Below are positions 2,518-34,387 of a DNA stretch of 52,853 nt, piece after piece; position 1 is the first letter of the stretch, and every line of letters starts with the position of its first letter. Source of the stretch: a virus; IMG/VR virus record IMGVR_UViG_3300027816_000138, positions 1-52,853 of that record, one strand, 5' to 3'. The notes below the pieces were generated by a model. That model did no database searches and was not told the DNA's origin. It saw only the letters and a program-made list of their open reading frames with translations. Position numbers and translations under genes: made by a program.

Positions 2518-2685
2518 ATGAATTTAACTGTGTTAATAGAAAAAGTTTTATCAGAAGCCAAGGTAAAGAGAGACAGATGTCTTAAAAGAGCCGATTCGGT
2601 ATATGGTAAAAAGACATCTGCATATAAAAGTGGTGCGGTTGTAAAATGCCGTCAAGGAAAGATTTGGAAAAAGAAAAAGAAATGA
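2518..2685 (+). CDS. Small basic protein with leader-like N-terminus
   Basis: 55 residues, translated directly from the sequence: starts MNLTVLIEKVLSEAKVKRDR and ends GKIWKKKKK. Seen: a hydrophobic/acidic start with VLSE-A, a possible prohead-protease site, then a Lys/Arg-rich body with two cysteines (RDRCLKRADSVYGKK, AVVKCRQGK). Small proteins with an 'RDRC...VYGKKTSAYKSGAVVKCR' layout occur in marine T4-like phages as I recall; function unknown. The stop overlaps the ATG of the next gene (ATGA at 2682). Inferred: a DNA-associated protein packaged in the capsid. Confidence 0.65.
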   Translation: MNLTVLIEKVLSEAKVKRDRCLKRADSVYGKKTSAYKSGAVVKCRQGKIWKKKKK

Positions 2686-4627: not shown

Positions 4628-5086
4628 ATGACTTTCAAAGAATATTTTTTTAAAGAGCAAACTGAAATAGAAAATTTTCAATATCCTCTTACCGTGTATC
4701 ATGGAACCGATTTATCATCTGCGAAAGATATAAAAGAAAATGGGTTGAATTTAAGTAAATGTCATAAGGGATATTTCGGACAAGCTTTTTATGTTACTAC
4801 AGATGAACAATTAGCAAAAAGTAATTATGCGGATTTTTCTGGGGACGACGAAGGAGGAACAGTTTTAGAATTTAAAATGAATCCGATTAATAAAATATTG
4901 GATTTAAGGAAAACCGATGATTGGGATTATTATCAAAATTTAAAATATAAAGGACGGGAACTTAGTAGTTGGATGGGATTCGATGAGTTGCCAAGTATTA
5001 TGAACTCATTCGGAATCGATGCAATATACGATAGATCTAATGATGCATTTGCAGTTTACAATTTGAATATACTAAGTATATTGTAA
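4628..5086 (+). CDS. ADP-ribosyltransferase-like protein with capsid-targeting leader
   Basis: 152 residues. Seen: leader MTFKEYFFKE (1-10), then Y24-H-G-T, KENGLNLS, F50-G-Q-A-F-Y-V-T followed by DEQLAKSNYA, and a C-terminal GIDAIYDR...FAVYN. Family knowledge: YHGT plus FGxGFYvT and a following 'xxA' helix is the signature of a family of ADP-ribosyltransferase-fold proteins in toxins and phages that use NAD+. T4 also packages an ADP-ribosyltransferase, Alt, and injects it to modify host RNA polymerase. Inferred: this is a functional counterpart of Alt, loaded through the leader. The catalytic Glu is not certain, so the target and activity remain open. Confidence 0.7.
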   Translation: MTFKEYFFKEQTEIENFQYPLTVYHGTDLSSAKDIKENGLNLSKCHKGYFGQAFYVTTDEQLAKSNYADFSGDDEGGTVLEFKMNPINKILDLRKTDDWDYYQNLKYKGRELSSWMGFDELPSIMNSFGIDAIYDRSNDAFAVYNLNILSIL

Positions 5087-5101: not shown

Positions 5102-6379
5102 ATGGATTTAGAACTTTTAGTAGAAAACGTAACAAACAGAAATAACAAAAACACATTCAATGTTTTAAAGTATGAAGATTTTTTAAACGAAAGTGTTTCA
5201 TGTGAACTATGTCAAGAAGAAGTATTGACCGAGGCAAAGTTACAATTAAGTGATGAGGAAATAAAGTTTGAACAAGAACTTAAAAGAAAATTACCAAGAC
5301 TTAATTTATTATCAGTTTTAGCGGATGCAAAGACCTTAAAATCTTTACATGATAAAAGAAGTGGAGATCAATATATTACTGGTATTCTTTATATAGCACC
5401 TTCAGAAGAAGGAGGGGTTGATGTTTGCGTTGGTTCTTCTGGTTGTTGCCGTATTGGTTGTTTAAACACCGCTGGTAATCCGGCGGTATTAAAAGGTAAG
5501 TTAAGATCCAGAATTAGAAAAGCACAGGAGTTACATTTATCTCCTGAATTGTTTTTTACAAAATTAAAATCGGATATTGTTTTACTTAAACATTTTGCAG
5601 ATGAGTTTAAATTAAAACTTGCTATTAGAATGAATGGAACTTCTGATTATGACTTCGGAGAAAAGATGGAAGATTTTGTTAAAGAGCAAGCAGGAAAAGG
5701 TGTTACGTTTTACGACTATACAAAAATAGTTCCCCGCTATAAAAAGTATTCTCAAAGTAAATTGATTCACCAAACATTTAGTCGTAGTGAACAAAACGAC
5801 AAAGCATCTTTGGATATTCTTAAAAATGGTGGAAACGTAGCGTATGTTTTCTATCAAAAAAATAATGTATTACCTAGTCATTATTTAGGATTCAAAGTAT
5901 TGAACGGTGATGCCAGCGATTTGAGATTCTTGGATGATAACGAAAAGGAGTTTGATGAAAATGGAAATCCAATTGGTTTAATCGTCGGGTTAAACGCCAA
6001 AGGGGTTATGAGAGGTAGAGGTAGTAGAGCAAGAGCTATTAGACGTTCTGTAATGTGGAATAAGAAACAAAAAAATCCAAAATATATTGGATCTCCAGAA
6101 TTTAAAAAAGATTGTATGGAGTATTTCGGAGTATCCAGCTTGGAAGATCTTTTTAATGATAGAGATAAATTAAAAGAGTATTTAGATTTTCAAAAACCAG
6201 ATGGTAAATTATTGGAACCAGATGGTGGTTTTGAAATTATAGTTGATGATCTTAAAAAGGTTAAACCAGATGTTTTTAATCCAAACTATAAACCAGCTTC
6301 TCCAGAAGTTAAACCTGAACAAGAAGTTAAACAAGAAAGTAAGATAGTATCATTCAAACAGTTTTTTATTGAAAAATGA
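5102..6379 (+). CDS. Phage gp88-like protein with leader motifs at both ends
   Basis: 425 residues. Seen: Cys-rich core C109...C115-C-R-I-G-C120-LNTAGN, then LAIRMNGTSDYDF, YDYTK, QTFSRSE, GGNVAYVFYQ and VLNGDASDLRFLDD followed by VGLNAKG. Family knowledge: these in order match the mycobacteriophage gp88 family of widespread phage proteins with unknown biochemistry; the clustered cysteines suggest metal binding. The N-terminal ~45 residues carry DFLNE-S and VLTE-A, and the last residues are SFKQFFIEK, a second leader-like motif. Inferred: packaged in the head. The stop overlaps the next start (ATGA at 6376). Confidence 0.75.
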   Translation: MDLELLVENVTNRNNKNTFNVLKYEDFLNESVSCELCQEEVLTEAKLQLSDEEIKFEQELKRKLPRLNLLSVLADAKTLKSLHDKRSGDQYITGILYIAPSEEGGVDVCVGSSGCCRIGCLNTAGNPAVLKGKLRSRIRKAQELHLSPELFFTKLKSDIVLLKHFADEFKLKLAIRMNGTSDYDFGEKMEDFVKEQAGKGVTFYDYTKIVPRYKKYSQSKLIHQTFSRSEQNDKASLDILKNGGNVAYVFYQKNNVLPSHYLGFKVLNGDASDLRFLDDNEKEFDENGNPIGLIVGLNAKGVMRGRGSRARAIRRSVMWNKKQKNPKYIGSPEFKKDCMEYFGVSSLEDLFNDRDKLKEYLDFQKPDGKLLEPDGGFEIIVDDLKKVKPDVFNPNYKPASPEVKPEQEVKQESKIVSFKQFFIEK

Positions 6380-6408
6380 TTTCGTTTAAAGAATATTTTC
6401 TATTAGAA
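6350..6408 (+). repeat. Tandem echo of leader-coding sequence across a gene junction
   Basis: 6350-6373 encodes SFKQFFIE at the C-terminus of the gp88-like protein, and 6382-6408 encodes SFKEYFLLE at the N-terminus of the next protein. The two copies flank the overlapping stop and start codons, as if a leader segment had been duplicated. Confidence 0.6.
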
Positions 6409-6852
6409 TCTCCAGAATATATCGCTGGCGTTTATGATAGGAGAGATTATAATTTTATATACTTTTTAGGGGACTCGGAAGGAACTTTTTTAGCTCCGTA
6501 TAATTCATCCAGAGAGTCTCATTCTTTTCTTTTTAAAGAACTTAAAAGTAGAGGAATTATAGATAAAAATTATAGTGTGGTATATCCTTTAGAAAATAAT
6601 TCTGATATTGTAGTTTTAGGTACTCCAAAAATAATAGACTTTACATATTCTGGAGTTATTCTACCAAAGCAAGATAATATCGATTCTACATATATATCAC
6701 ATTGGACAAAAGAATCTTATTTAAAAATAAATGATATTATTTTAGCGTATGTTAAAAAGAATATGCCAGCGCCGTATGCTATAGAATATGTTAAAAAGGG
6801 AACTCAGTTAGATCTCGATGGTCCAAAAACAGAAGTAATAAGAGTAAAGTAA
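6376..6852 (+). CDS. Putative internal virion protein with capsid-targeting leader
   Basis: 158 residues. Seen: leader MISFKEYFLLE-S, the closest match in the window to the T4 internal-protein leader (MKTYQEFIAE-A). The body has no domain I recognise; it includes a mixed beta region (YIAGVYDRRDYNFIYFLGD), SHWTKESYLKIND and a C-terminal KKGTQLDLDGPKTEVI. Start is fixed by the 4-nt overlap with the previous stop. Inferred: an injected protein co-expressed with the gp88-like gene; function unknown. Confidence 0.7.
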   Translation: MISFKEYFLLESPEYIAGVYDRRDYNFIYFLGDSEGTFLAPYNSSRESHSFLFKELKSRGIIDKNYSVVYPLENNSDIVVLGTPKIIDFTYSGVILPKQDNIDSTYISHWTKESYLKINDIILAYVKKNMPAPYAIEYVKKGTQLDLDGPKTEVIRVK

Positions 6853-10940: not shown

Positions 10941-11386
10941 TATTTAAAATAGTTTACTATACGGTTTAAAATAATCAATGTATTTTTAAGTAAAGTTTTA
11001 TATTCAAACCCGGACGTTGGAAACTCTATATAGCAGTAAGGAGTTCCAGTTTTAAATAATTGAAGTTCTAATTTTTTATTTTTATTTACTTGATGTTTTC
11101 CTATAAATGGAATTTCTATATTATTAGAAATTATGTATTTGATTTTTTCTATTATAGAGTTTGAACAGTTTATATAAATACCTCTCGTTTTATTACTTTC
11201 ATTTATATCTAGAACTAATCTCGGGTTTAATTTTAATATTTTTTCCATATTAAAATTATCATCAAATATTTTAATGTTTGATTTACCTTTAAAAAAATAC
11301 TTAAGTTTTTCTGAATAACCACTTTTTGTATTATTTATGATTAATACTATAGGTCTTTTTTGTGTAAAATTTTTAAAGGTCGTCAT
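10940..11386 (-). CDS. Unknown protein upstream of SGNH-like gene
   Basis: 148 residues. Seen: beta-rich start RPIVLIINNTKSGYSEKLKY, PRLVLDINESN, RGIYINCSN and a C-terminal TGTPYCYIEFPTSGFE followed by a hydrophobic helix. The alternation of strands and helices looks like an alpha/beta enzyme, and the IEFPTSGFE region faintly recalls zinc amidase families, but the metal ligands are not evident. I do not assign a function. It abuts the SGNH-like gene downstream and reads away from hsp20. Confidence 0.55.
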   Translation of the reverse strand: MTTFKNFTQKRPIVLIINNTKSGYSEKLKYFFKGKSNIKIFDDNFNMEKILKLNPRLVLDINESNKTRGIYINCSNSIIEKIKYIISNNIEIPFIGKHQVNKNKKLELQLFKTGTPYCYIEFPTSGFEYKTLLKNTLIILNRIVNYFK

Positions 11387-11445
11387 CTAGTATATATTTA
11401 CATATAATACATAAAAAAATCTTGTTGTATTTTTAATAAAAAAAT

Positions 11446-22322: not shown

Positions 22323-22490
22323 TCAAAATTTAGCTGATAATTCGTTAATGATTTCCTCTTGAGCTAAAGCATAAGATTTTGATAGTTCTTCGACTGTTTC
22401 ATTTGGTTCGAACTCGACCAATTCATCCTGAATAGACTTGTAAATAGCCGATACTTCCTCTGGAGTTTTAGGTACTTTAAAATAAATCAT
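22323..22490 (-). CDS. Small acidic protein between nrdB and nrdA
   Basis: 55 residues by direct translation: begins MIYFKVPKTPEEVSAIYKSI and ends EEIINELSAKF. Its ATG lies inside the 3' end of nrdB (14-nt overlap), so it is translationally coupled. It is acidic and helical. Its fixed place between the RNR genes suggests a role linked to RNR, which is an inference; no family recognised. Confidence 0.6.
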   Translation of the reverse strand: MIYFKVPKTPEEVSAIYKSIQDELVEFEPNETVEELSKSYALAQEEIINELSAKF

Positions 22491-23448
22491 CTTCTGAAAA
22501 GGATTGATTTTTCTTAGAATATTCTGTTGGACGAGAATGGAAAAAATCCGTCATGTTATTCCCCAATAATTCTTCCTCAAACCACATAGTAGAAGATAAA
22601 ATTTCTTTATCAACTTCAAATGCTTTTGGAAATTTAATTTGAGTTAAAGATTCATTGATTCTGTTTTTTACAAATTCTTTTAGAATTGTAGCACTTAAAC
22701 CTTCTTCCTTTATTCCATTTACCATCCAATCAATAATTTTAGATTCCGATTCATATGCTTCTTTTGCTTCGCTTACAATCTTTTCAACCAATTCTTCGTC
22801 AAAAAGATCGGGATATTCATTACGTATTGTATTAATGATTTTAATACCAACCAGAGCGTGTATATTTTCTTCATTGCGTGTATATTTTACTTGTTGATCT
22901 GTATCTTTAAGAACATTCTTATGTCTAGCAAACCAATTGATTACATAAAATTGTGAAAACAAAGAAACGTTTTCGACAAACAATGTGAATAAAATTAATG
23001 CATAAAGATATTGTTTCTTACTATCTTTATAAAAACGGTGTGTATATTTTTTAAGATATTTTACACGACCTTGAATCCAGTCGAGTTTTAAATTTTTTTC
23101 AAAAACATCTTCTAATCCTAATGTAGTAATCAATCTTTCATATGCATTATTGTGGATGACTTCTACATTAGCCATAACAAAACCTAAATCAGCAAGAGAT
23201 GGATGAGGTAGATTCTCTCCCAACTTAGACCAAAATGTTTTAACCGCAATTTCGATTTGTCCAATAGCGGAAAGAGTTCTAACTATGATTTCTTTTTCTT
23301 GTTCAGTAAGTTTTACTTTAAATTGTTGAACATCAGACTTGAATGAAAATTCTTTATCAGTCCAAAAACCATTGTGCATAGCTTCAATAAATTCATCGGT
23401 CCAAGGGTAAAGGTTAGGTTTGCGCGAGATTTGTTCTTCGAATATCAT
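22477..23448 (-). CDS. nrdB: Ribonucleoside-diphosphate reductase beta subunit, class I
   Basis: 323 residues. Seen: E66 (QIEIAVK), E96-x-x-H99 with Y103 at +7 (VEVIHNNAY, the radical-tyrosine spacing of E. coli NrdB), E159 (LFVENV) and E194-x-x-H197 (NEENIHA) as the di-metal ligands. The C-terminus ends in acidic/aromatic EDDLF as expected for binding NrdA. Family knowledge: generates the tyrosyl radical used by NrdA. The first ligand is Glu rather than Asp. It overlaps the HExxH gene upstream by 4 nt. Confidence 0.95.
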   Translation of the reverse strand: MIFEEQISRKPNLYPWTDEFIEAMHNGFWTDKEFSFKSDVQQFKVKLTEQEKEIIVRTLSAIGQIEIAVKTFWSKLGENLPHPSLADLGFVMANVEVIHNNAYERLITTLGLEDVFEKNLKLDWIQGRVKYLKKYTHRFYKDSKKQYLYALILFTLFVENVSLFSQFYVINWFARHKNVLKDTDQQVKYTRNEENIHALVGIKIINTIRNEYPDLFDEELVEKIVSEAKEAYESESKIIDWMVNGIKEEGLSATILKEFVKNRINESLTQIKFPKAFEVDKEILSSTMWFEEELLGNNMTDFFHSRPTEYSKKNQSFSEDDLF

Positions 23449-30751: not shown

Positions 30752-31036
30752 TTACCAATCTTTGCAAGCTTGATATTTTGCGGTTCCGGGTTTTGCCGAT
30801 GAACATTTATGTCTAGCTCTAAATGATTTTTTTCTTTTAGTATTACCGGATTTTCCAGTCACTCTAACTCCCTTTTGACCCCAATGAACTCTCTTGTATC
30901 CTCCACCACTTGGGTTTTTAACGCATTTCATCCATTTTTTACCTTTTGCTGTTGATGTAGCTTTTTTGGTTGGTCCTGTGCATTTAGCTTCTTCCAGTAG
31001 CGAGGAAACGAGTAGATCAAATTTATTAGTGTTCAT
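30752..31036 (-). CDS. Small Lys/Arg/Cys-rich protein with leader-like start
   Basis: 94 residues. Seen: MNTNKFDLLVSSLLEE-A, then a strongly basic body with CTGPTKKATSTAKGKKW, VHWGQKGVRVTGKSGNTKRK, a conserved KKSFRARHKCSSAKPGTAKY and CKDW at the end. Family knowledge: the 'KSFRaRHkCssAkpGTakyqAckdW' segment is found in small proteins of many large phages and eukaryotic large DNA viruses, function unknown. Inferred: DNA-condensing or packaged basic protein, similar in type to those at 2518 and 2682. An exact TATAAATA precedes the ATG by 8 nt. Confidence 0.7.
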   Translation of the reverse strand: MNTNKFDLLVSSLLEEAKCTGPTKKATSTAKGKKWMKCVKNPSGGGYKRVHWGQKGVRVTGKSGNTKRKKSFRARHKCSSAKPGTAKYQACKDW

Positions 31037-31116: not shown

Positions 31117-33831
31117 ATGGCATCAAGAACAATAGCATCACCCGGAGTACAAATAACTGAACAGGACTTATCTATTATAACAAGACCAATTGGAGCTACT
31201 GACGTTTTAATATCAGGCTTTGCCCCTCAAGGTCCAACTGAAACATTAGTTAATGTTACTGATATCAGTGAATTTGAACAAATTTATGGAACACCAACAA
31301 ATGCCGCTGAAAGATATTTGTATCATTCTGCAAAGCAAATTTTAAATACTTCTCCAGCAAACTTACTCGTTTCTAGATTACCATATGGTTCTGGAATGGG
31401 AGAAGGATATACTAATTCATATAGTGCATTAGTATATGGAATTTCTGGTGTTTTTGAAGAAATAATTGAAACTAGATCTTATCCATTAAATAACATCATT
31501 ACTGTAGATGGCGTAAACGAGTCTGAGTTATTATCAAATCTAGCTGCATTAGGTTCTCCATATTCTTTATATGCTACAACTACTGCCGCTCAAAATTTAC
31601 CAAAATATAAATCAACAAATCCAATTGTTGATACCTTTGTTGATCAAGTAGTATATCCAACTCTTAGTACATTGAGAGTAGCTGGTGCAACTGTAGATGA
31701 TGTAGTTTCAAATACATTTGCGTTAACCGCATCTGCTCCATTTTCAAGTTATCCGCAATTAACTTCTTTATTTAATTTGTATGCATCTGATATATTCCCA
31801 GTAACTCAAAACCAATGGGTTGCTACTGAAGTATTAAATGATGGTGTAGAATGGTGGAGAACATTAACTGTTAAAACTACTGCTACTCAACAAGTAGTAA
31901 CAAATTATGTTATTTCTGTAAGTACATATAATGAAAACATTAATACCTCAACAGTAATAAATCCTGTTACGAGTTTAACCGACGCTAACAGCTATTTACT
32001 TCTTCCTCCAATTTCTATATTATTAACTGATGATCAATATAATCAAATTGCATCAAATAGTATTGATTGGCAGAATTTAATATCTACAAATTCAAATACT
32101 TTATCTTCATTTTCTTCATTAGGTAAAGCTGGCTTAATCGTTTTAAACGATTCAAAAACAAGCATAAACAATCTTTTTGAAGGTTACTATGTTGGCATAG
32201 CAGACAATAGAAACGTAAACCCAGCTACAGATTATGATTCTATAACTGCGATAAATACCACTCAAACTTTATCTTCAATTGGTGGTTCTATTGGAATTCA
32301 GCCATTTGCTAAAATTCCAGAATCAAGATTGAATTTTAAATTAACTCAAGAGTATACTGGATTCGCTGGAGATTGTATATCCGAATCATTGGAGGCATAT
32401 CCTACTGGCTATGACTTTGCCACATCATCATTTGATGATAGCTTAATTTTAGTTCTCTTTAAATTAAACACATCTATCTACAATAGAGATACCGTTGTAC
32501 TTGATTATAGAGTAGCTGAAGGATATTCCGGTTCTTTATATTCAAAGAGAACACAAAACAATCCTACTTTTGGAACTCCAAATACATTCTTCTTAGATAA
32601 CGTAGTAGAAAAAAGATCTAATAACATTAAAGTTGTAACAAATCCATATATTTCAACTTATGGAAAATGGGTTTCTGATAATGGACAACCAGCTAAAAAA
32701 GTTAGAGTTTCTGATAAAGCCAAAGCTGCATATCCAGTTGGTGTATATGTTTCCGAAAATGATTTTGAAAATACTGATTTAGGAAACGTTCCATCAAAAT
32801 TACAAAGAGTATTAAATACAATTCAAAACGACGAAACATTAAATATCGATGTAGTAGCCGAATGTGGATTAGGAACTATTTGGGCTGGTGCAAAAGCTAG
32901 AAAATTAGCTGATGGATTATCTGAATATATTTTCGATGAAAATTATTCTGTTGATATATCAGAATTAAAAGATACCTCTGGAGCTATCGTAACAGGTATA
33001 AACGCCGACTACCAAGCTCTTGCTAATAAATTCTTAACTTTTGTTTCTGATAGAAAAGATCACGTTTTCATAGCAGACCCATTAAGATACATTTTTGTTT
33101 CTGGAAAAAATTATAAAACAACAGCTAGAAAAAATTATGTATTCTCTAATGATGTTTATTGGCCAATGAAAAATCAATTTGCTGCTTTCCAATCCAGCTA
33201 TTCATGCGTATATGGAAACTGGTTGAGAGTTGCTGATGATTTTTCAGATCAATTCGTTTGGGTTCCATCTTCAGCATTTGCCGCTGGTGTATTTGCAACA
33301 ACTTCACAAGTTGCTTTCCCATGGGCCGCTCCTGCTGGTTTAAATAGAGGAAATCTATTAAATGTTATAGATTTAGGTATAACACCAAATCAAAAACAAT
33401 CAGATTTATTATATAAAATAAACATAAACCCAATTTCATTCTTTGGAAATGATGGATATGCTATATTCGGTCAAAAGACTTTATATCGCAAACCTTCCGC
33501 ATTCGATAGAATTAACGTTCGTAGATTGTTCTTAACTTTAGAAAAAGAAACTAAACAGTTATTAAAATACTACGTCTTCGAACCAAACACATTCACAACA
33601 AGACAGAGATTAATTGGTTCATTACAACCAACATTTGATAAAGCTAAATTAAATGACGGTTTATATGAATATCAAATTATCTGTGATGAAAGAAATAACA
33701 CTCCAGATGTTATTGATAATAATGAAATGAAAATATCAATATACATCAAACCAGTAAGAACAGCTGAGTTCATATTGGCGGACTTCATCGCAACAAGAAC
33801 TGGAGTTTCTTTCTCTGAATTGATAGGATAA
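31117..33831 (+). CDS. Tail sheath protein (T4 gp18-like)
   Basis: 904 residues from the ATG at 31117 (MASRTIASPGVQITEQDLSI); T4 gp18 has 659, so this copy carries about 250 extra residues, mostly in the middle (roughly 110-420), where the sequence is Ser/Thr/Asn-rich as in surface-exposed inserts. Seen: the conserved N-terminus with 'SPGVQITEQD' and 'GFAPQGPTETLVNVTDISEF', and the C-terminal LFLTLEKETKQLLKYYVFEP followed by a final beta region with YIKPVRTAEFI. Function from the family: forms the contractile sheath around the tube. Tube gene follows at 33848. Confidence 0.95.
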   Translation: MASRTIASPGVQITEQDLSIITRPIGATDVLISGFAPQGPTETLVNVTDISEFEQIYGTPTNAAERYLYHSAKQILNTSPANLLVSRLPYGSGMGEGYTNSYSALVYGISGVFEEIIETRSYPLNNIITVDGVNESELLSNLAALGSPYSLYATTTAAQNLPKYKSTNPIVDTFVDQVVYPTLSTLRVAGATVDDVVSNTFALTASAPFSSYPQLTSLFNLYASDIFPVTQNQWVATEVLNDGVEWWRTLTVKTTATQQVVTNYVISVSTYNENINTSTVINPVTSLTDANSYLLLPPISILLTDDQYNQIASNSIDWQNLISTNSNTLSSFSSLGKAGLIVLNDSKTSINNLFEGYYVGIADNRNVNPATDYDSITAINTTQTLSSIGGSIGIQPFAKIPESRLNFKLTQEYTGFAGDCISESLEAYPTGYDFATSSFDDSLILVLFKLNTSIYNRDTVVLDYRVAEGYSGSLYSKRTQNNPTFGTPNTFFLDNVVEKRSNNIKVVTNPYISTYGKWVSDNGQPAKKVRVSDKAKAAYPVGVYVSENDFENTDLGNVPSKLQRVLNTIQNDETLNIDVVAECGLGTIWAGAKARKLADGLSEYIFDENYSVDISELKDTSGAIVTGINADYQALANKFLTFVSDRKDHVFIADPLRYIFVSGKNYKTTARKNYVFSNDVYWPMKNQFAAFQSSYSCVYGNWLRVADDFSDQFVWVPSSAFAAGVFATTSQVAFPWAAPAGLNRGNLLNVIDLGITPNQKQSDLLYKININPISFFGNDGYAIFGQKTLYRKPSAFDRINVRRLFLTLEKETKQLLKYYVFEPNTFTTRQRLIGSLQPTFDKAKLNDGLYEYQIICDERNNTPDVIDNNEMKISIYIKPVRTAEFILADFIATRTGVSFSELIG

Positions 33832-33833
33832 AG

Positions 33834-33841
33834 GATAAATA
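33834..33841 (+). promoter_or_regulatory. Late-promoter-like octamer GATAAATA
   Basis: 6 nt before the tail tube ATG at 33848. Confidence 0.5.
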
Positions 33842-33847
33842 ATATAT

Positions 33848-34387
33848 ATGGCTGGATTACTCGACACCACTGGAATTGAAAACTTCTACAACGCGGCATC
33901 AATAAACGATTTTGCTAGACAAAATCTTTTTAGAGTTGTCGCATTAGGCGGAACACGTTTTACCGTTAATGAGTTGATGTATGTAACTACAACAACTCTT
34001 CCCGGCAGAGCTATTAACAATATTCAAGTACCATTTATGGGCTTGCAATTTAATGTCCCCGGAACCGCTAATTACCCAAATTCAAATGCTTGGAATCTAA
34101 CATTTAGAGTTCCACAAAGTCTTTCTGTTAGAAGAAAGTTTGAAGATTGGACTAAATTAGTATTTGATGATGCTACTAGCACTGGTGCTTATAACATCCC
34201 AAGTAAAGATGTTTCCAATCAAGTTATTTTAACACTTATAAATAAAGACGGTACTCCATTAAGAACATATACATTTTTTGGAGCTTACTGCGTAAGTTTA
34301 GGTGAGTTAACTTTGGATGTAACAACAGCTGGTGATATTTTAAATCAACAAGCTACTTTAGCATATCAATATTGGAGACTTACCTAA
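33848..34387 (+). CDS. Tail tube protein (T4 gp19-like)
   Basis: 179 residues, like T4 gp19 (163). Seen: FARQNLFRVVALGGTRFTVN, TTTLPGRAINNIQVPFMGLQ, NVPGTANYPNSNAWNLTFRV and a C-terminal beta region ending LAYQYWRLT; these are typical of the tail tube fold (P-loop-free beta sandwich shared with Hcp). Function from the family: polymerises into the inner tube through which DNA passes. Two further tube-like proteins (34409 and 43130) occur downstream. Confidence 0.93.
   Translation: MAGLLDTTGIENFYNAASINDFARQNLFRVVALGGTRFTVNELMYVTTTTLPGRAINNIQVPFMGLQFNVPGTANYPNSNAWNLTFRVPQSLSVRRKFEDWTKLVFDDATSTGAYNIPSKDVSNQVILTLINKDGTPLRTYTFFGAYCVSLGELTLDVTTAGDILNQQATLAYQYWRLT

Follow-up and report, generated by a model that had tools for sequence, protein, structure and literature searches.

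A T4-type leader at the C terminus of a phage GP88-family protein probably derives from a fused leader–cargo mini-gene

Why does a GP88-family phage protein end in a short segment that resembles a capsid-targeting leader, when the overlapping next gene begins with a similar one? The question is raised by a stretch of viral DNA of 52,853 nucleotides (IMG/VR record IMGVR_UViG_3300027816_000138; hereafter the window), a 53-kb fragment of a marine virus that is assigned to the T4-like phages because of its T4-type large terminase (phrog_2, phrog_5989 and PF03237), whose closest match among cultured phages, at 34%, is in Sinorhizobium phage phiN3. The gp88 ORF (5102–6379; plus strand, as are the window features below unless stated) encodes 425 residues arranged as an N-terminal leader region, a GP88 core, a disordered linker and a C-terminal leader, SFKQFFIE (6350–6376), after which a single K precedes the stop (...ESKIVSFKQFFIEK). 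An ATGA stop/start overlap (6376–6379) joins it to the next gene (6376–6852, 158 residues), which bears its own leader MISFKEYFLLES and has orthologues in four related viral contigs (L003, L004, L110 and L112). The SF(K) codon runs of the two segments begin at 6350 and at 6382, a distance of exactly 32 nt, and 17 of 24 bases are identical between them, a level that none of 20,000 random in-frame pairs of 24-mers from the two genes reached, for segments chosen after the fact. The original prediction had pointed to this ending, this start, the overlap and the 32-nt distance, as well as to x-E sites near the GP88 N terminus (K23-YEDFLNE30|S and V41-LTE44|A), and the ORFs bear out all of them. It had explained the echo by duplication of a leader module at the gene boundary. 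The answer that we favour instead, with a probability of about 70%, is that SFKQFFIEK is a T4-type capsid-targeting/prohead-protease leader that arrived as part of a mini-gene encoding a leader plus a basic peptide, which was joined in frame to gp88 at the 3′ end and later lost the peptide while the leader was kept.

Leaders are a common feature of this DNA. Many window genes begin with one, and three kinds can be told apart: class A (MTFKEYFLES, MISFKEYFLLES), class B (MNLTVLIEKVLSEA) and class C (MRSKDQILLENLY..IL.E). Class A matches the leader MKTYQEFIAE|A of the T4 internal proteins (read from NC_000866). In the IPIII leader, T4 genetics placed targeting mainly at residues 4 and 7, and processing at residues 8 and 10 (PMC9026906). 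SFKQFFIE has F, F, F and E at capsid-targeting sequence (CTS) positions 4, 7, 8 and 10, that is, aromatic residues at 4 and 7, a hydrophobic one at 8 and Glu at 10. It departs from a CTS in lying at the C terminus, although GP88 has N-terminal leaders besides, and in having Phe at P3 (F-I-E), where the T4 cleavage rule asks for L/I-x-E, a rule that the N-terminal VLTE|A does fit (PMC9026906). We therefore class it as perhaps working like a CTS rather than as a standard CTS. Both end regions of GP88, residues 1–45 and 402–425, are predicted to be disordered. The suggestion that the segment is a leader module stands, and the C-terminal targeting signal that the original prediction raised as a possibility is plausible.

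It is the same locus in related contigs that makes an origin of the C-terminal leader in cassette fusion well supported. A free gene, a fused cassette and a bare leader all occur at this one locus in related genomes. Leader-bearing gp88 is known from four viral contigs only: L002, which is identical to the window, L003, L004 and L005. In the window and L002, the bare leader SFKQFFIEK ends with a single K after the Glu; L004 also has a bare leader, SFKNFFTEETKKRR, with ETKKRR after the Glu; and in L003 the leader SFKSFFSEA is followed by CWKNYKQVGMKKKNGKEVPNCVSNKKKKK, a cassette fused in frame (...SFKSFFSEACWKNYKQVGMKKKNGKEVPNCVSNKKKKK) whose peptide begins CWKNYKQ.... The recurrence of the SFKxFFxE motif in L003 and L004, which had been proposed as a check, was thus found. 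In L005 the leader is another one (RFGNLIKSVMEGA), and behind it comes a larger cargo of 240 residues that is homologous to free leader proteins in contigs G005 (E 4e-19) and G006 (E 3e-20). In L110 and L112 the next gene is present without gp88 in front of it, and a free mini-gene lies directly before the next gene, reading MKSFEKFFTEACWKNYKQEGMKKKGKRMVPNCVPKKKKKK in L112 and MNIKSIIENVLTEACWKNYKQ... in L110 (MNIKSIIENVLTEACWKNYKQDGMKKKGKRMVPNCVPKKKKKK). This mini-gene consists of a leader plus a small basic peptide (MKSFEKFFTEA-CWKNYKQ...). The tail of L003 GP88 is that mini-gene in frame, leader included, of which the window and L004 retain the leader only, and the ATGA overlap that joins gp88 to the next gene in the window joins the cassette to the next gene in L003 and L112.

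The next gene is 95–96% identical in DNA between L003 and both L110 and L112, but the cassette DNA is, by eye, far less alike, which suggests a recombination joint at the 18-nt boundary, AAAAAGAAAAAGAAATGA, in which the L003 cassette ends (11375–11392) and which is identical at the end of a mini-gene of the window (2668–2685). L003 and L004 are sisters by GP88 (92–93% amino acid identity) and yet differ in cargo, so that the order of events may have been fusion followed by loss, or loss followed by regain in L003. In the L002 contig, the 11 kb before the window (L008:1–10973) holds patches of repeated homologous DNA that are also seen in the L003, L110 and L112 contigs, as well as short repeated elements. 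We had suspected this 10.97-kb upstream part of being a chimera, a suspicion that we reject on account of homologous segments in three other contigs.

Could an AT-rich, Phe/Lys-rich protein simply have come to end in this motif by chance or convergence? In the window alone, a strict class-A pattern ([ST][FY][KGE].[FY][FLI].{1,2}E, scored in the last 60 residues) occurs once against 0.03 expected, and 57 of 2,000 shuffles of the window genes give one such C terminus, so that the weight of the statistics comes from the relatives. When five related contigs are added to the window, giving 545 genes, three C termini carry the pattern against 0.19 expected, a count reached in 0 of 2,000 shuffles, and it occurs 10 times at N termini against 0.11 expected. 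Since the motif lies at the homologous place in three genomes and is linked to the CWK cassette in L003, this explanation is contradicted already, and we give it a negligible probability. A tandem copy of the next gene's leader, placed at the end of gp88 by local duplication as originally proposed, would account for two similar segments 32 nt apart with 17 of 24 nt in common. However, the spacing class differs, with eight residues in the C-terminal copy (SFKxFFxE, three genomes) and in the mini-gene (SFEKFFTE), and nine in the next gene (SFKEYFLLE). Nor is the C-terminal copy nearer to the neighbour's leader (15–17 of 24 nt) than to that of the mini-gene (17–20 of 24). A free mini-gene with such a leader occupies the same place in L110 and L112, and L003 has the cargo fusion. 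The relatives' junctions, those of L003 and L112 above all, together with the spacing class lead us to reject duplication as the origin of the echo; its probability is very low.

A third explanation accepts the fusion and questions what is left of it: the leader would be a passive relic, a remnant upstream of a deleted cassette that is now without function. Cargo has been lost in the window, in L004 and in a protein of G005 (protein X), and it is always the upstream part that is left, as any truncation would leave it; moreover, with only K (window) or ETKKRR (L004) after the Glu, cleavage would release nothing useful. Against this, the six motif codons show three synonymous and no nonsynonymous changes between the cargo-less window and L004 homologues, while both free positions changed in amino acid and the linker just before the leader is barely alignable in proteins whose cores are 85% identical, although eight codons make a small sample and the cargo may have been lost recently. 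The four key positions (F, F, F and E) are retained in the window, L003 and L004, and the unassigned ones vary (Q/S/N and I/S/T). We consider the relic explanation unlikely on balance. We put at slightly less than even the chance that the bare C-terminal leader remains active as a second targeting signal. Under the fusion reading that we prefer, GP88 would belong to the head cargo and bear a leader at either end, presumably being packaged and presumably cleaved at its leader sites.

The protein that carries these leaders is a clear member of its family (PF17338, E 7.8e-24, 85.2 bits against a curated cut-off of 24.4; phrog_1617, E 5.6e-44), which comprises mycobacteriophage and Pelagibacter phage proteins and with which it shares a core with an invariant Cys109-x6-Cys116-x3-Cys120. 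Unlike the window protein, the 77 other homologues compared consist of the core alone, mostly 228–255 residues, with a leader at neither end, whereas each of the four leader-bearing GP88s carries a leader in the same C-terminal place and an N-terminal leader region as well. A search for further relatives through the clade-specific C-terminal domain returned none that was new. The L002 contig encodes, upstream of the window, a leaderless GP88 paralogue (L008:7856–8500; PF17338, E 3.3e-26), and open frames sharing their C-terminal end with leaderless GP88 are seen in the contigs of L003 (~22386–23213) and L112 (~33510–34154). The predicted fold of the core (5351–6019) has radical SAM enzymes as its best, albeit weak, structural matches (ChlB, Z 6.0; PFL-activating enzyme, 5.9; viperin; TYW1). 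The Z scores are only 5–6, and the spacing of the three invariant cysteines (C109, C116 and C120) is C-x6-C-x3-C; GP88 may be a radical-SAM-like iron–sulphur enzyme. A sequence search of the PDB with GP88 gave no match.

The front end of GP88 (5102–5236) has leaders of its own, apparently stacked. A class-B leader, MDLELLVEN (5102–5128), resembles MNLTVLIEKVLSEA at 2518 and aligns with MDLELLAES in L003 and MNLKLLIEN in L004. It is followed by a T4-CTS-like leader, KYEDFLNE|S (5168–5194; compare TYQEFIAE|A in T4 IPIII), which is partly kept in L003 and L004, then by a CxxC, and then by VLTE|A (5222–5236), the most conserved N-terminal site of prohead-protease type, with L42, E44, A45 and K46 invariant in the four homologues. 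Perhaps the front end grew by the same accretion of cassettes as the C terminus.

Switching between free and fused cassettes extends beyond this locus. The window has a free mini-gene for a class-B leader plus the basic DRC peptide (2518–2685), overlapped by one for a class-B leader plus the basic, Cys-containing GWF peptide (2682–2945), and a single protein (QQO92104) corresponds to the two in Flavobacterium phage immuto. As a gene of its own, the DRC cassette occurs in the window, G009 and G011; G002 and G008 have it as a C-terminal fusion, and the contig of L003 has it at the C terminus of another protein. In G005, a bare leader (SFGKYFQLVEKKEKRR / SYIPSFGKYFQLVEKKEKRR) stands on the same host protein, protein X, so that GP88 is not the only protein with such an ending; the case that the original prediction named as refuting it, homologues without the motif and no similar echo elsewhere, was thus not encountered. 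The KYK cassette (DUF5661) stands alone in G006, whereas G002 and G005 have it as a fusion, in which G005 retains the MNFEQYILE inner Met. Each of the eight free CWK mini-genes seen in other viral contigs starts with a leader by eye (e.g., MKTFKQYFLEA), and six of 30 distinct internal CWK copies are directly preceded by a class-A leader, against 0.4% in shuffles. An L178 protein carries two CWK cassettes in tandem (residues 152–214) with KEEKVEEA between them, which is a direct instance of cassette repetition and offers a possible site of cleavage between the copies. A further free leader mini-gene of the window, on the minus strand (30752–31036), encodes a basic Cys peptide with a weak match to DUF5754, and the basic cassette peptide of L112:7182–7415 matches DUF5661. 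Leaders can also be exchanged on one cargo: the gene upstream of gp88 (4628–5086), whose product has a weak ADP-ribosyltransferase match, starts with MTFKEYFFKE in the window and with a leader of a different class, MRNKDQILLENLY / MRSKDQILLENLY, in its L003 / L112 orthologues. Its product, a possible counterpart of T4 Alt, had no match in the phage collection. Among five long, more distant relatives, a single C-terminal class-A leader was seen against 1.18 expected, which is chance level, and the scanned stretches of phages Melnitz, C48C1 and immuto had none; C-terminal leaders are therefore a habit of one subgroup, not a general one.

These observations can be accommodated in a simple scheme. 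Each gene of the cargo island would bear its own leader to dock the protein on the prohead core, and a gp21-type protease would then cut behind the Glu. As the cut would part leader from cargo, it would make no difference whether a cassette stood alone as a gene or formed the tail of another protein, leaving cassettes free to fuse and separate; at gp88, a mini-gene would have fused in frame to the 3′ end and lost its peptide here, the leader staying behind. A candidate protease is encoded in the wider group: each of the eight relatives that reach 111 kb or more has PF03420 (E 1e-27 to 1e-32), as does immuto. It was not found in shorter relatives, in the 53-kb window or in six close, partial contigs, in which no major capsid family was found either. 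Because the eight long relatives have the protease, its absence from the close contigs is probably a matter of where the fragments end. A bolder generalization, which we put forward tentatively and hold to be possible rather than probable, is that in this phage group the T4-type leader acts as interchangeable punctuation in protease-cleaved polyproteins that join enzymes to small basic DNA-condensing or injected peptides. Bare C-terminal leaders would then be stand-alone capsid-targeting signals, and genes would fuse and split freely since maturation cleavage equalizes both forms.

If the C-terminal leader does target, T4-like capsid targeting would not need a free N terminus, which would widen the routes by which head cargo can be packed and the means of predicting cargo from sequence. 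Protease processing would relax gene boundaries, making fusion and fission nearly neutral, and many long uncharacterized proteins of marine T4-like phages become possible polyproteins with testable cut sites. Putative sites of this kind lie behind internal leaders in immuto QQO92104 (QELLQE|DETLHKW) and in Methylophilales phage Melnitz QZI94305 (KFKDMFGE|EDPCW). N-terminal CTSs and C-terminal processing of T4 Alt, T4 gp21 and SPN3US gp245 are known already (PMC9026906, PMC5694885, PMC10052503), but our literature searches brought up no account of a C-terminal CTS of T4 type, of leader–cargo cassettes moving between free genes and fusions, or of leader-linked cargo fusions or polyproteins in T4-like phages or cyanophages. 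The closest parallel is with T4 IPI, IPII and IPIII, which likewise have a leader of ~10 residues (S/T-F/Y-x-x-F/Y-hydrophobic-x-E), one per cargo gene, on small basic cargo, in a phage of the same T4-like kind with a gp21-type protease, as in the relatives of the window. In T4, however, the CTS is N-terminal only, whereas the leader of the window group is also found at the C terminus and between fused cargos. Alt, with propeptides at both ends, gp21 and SPN3US gp245 do have a processing or targeting sequence at the C terminus of a head protein, as here (PMC9026906, PMC5694885). Nevertheless, the Alt C terminus shows no clear CTS, and for these C-terminal propeptides, unlike for the GP88 leader, no descent from a fused cargo gene has been traced. 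The same CWK, DRC and GWF cassettes as in the window group are found in head-region proteins of Kyanoviridae (S-RIM8 QBQ75647, C48C1 WJE87962 and Melnitz QZI94305). A class-A leader stands directly before CWK in four of seven cases in their multi-module proteins, and in C48C1 and Melnitz the cassettes follow a cytidylyltransferase domain, just as they follow GP88 here. The difference is that the cassettes of Kyanoviridae are concatenated within long proteins, whereas those of the window group are mostly separate genes.
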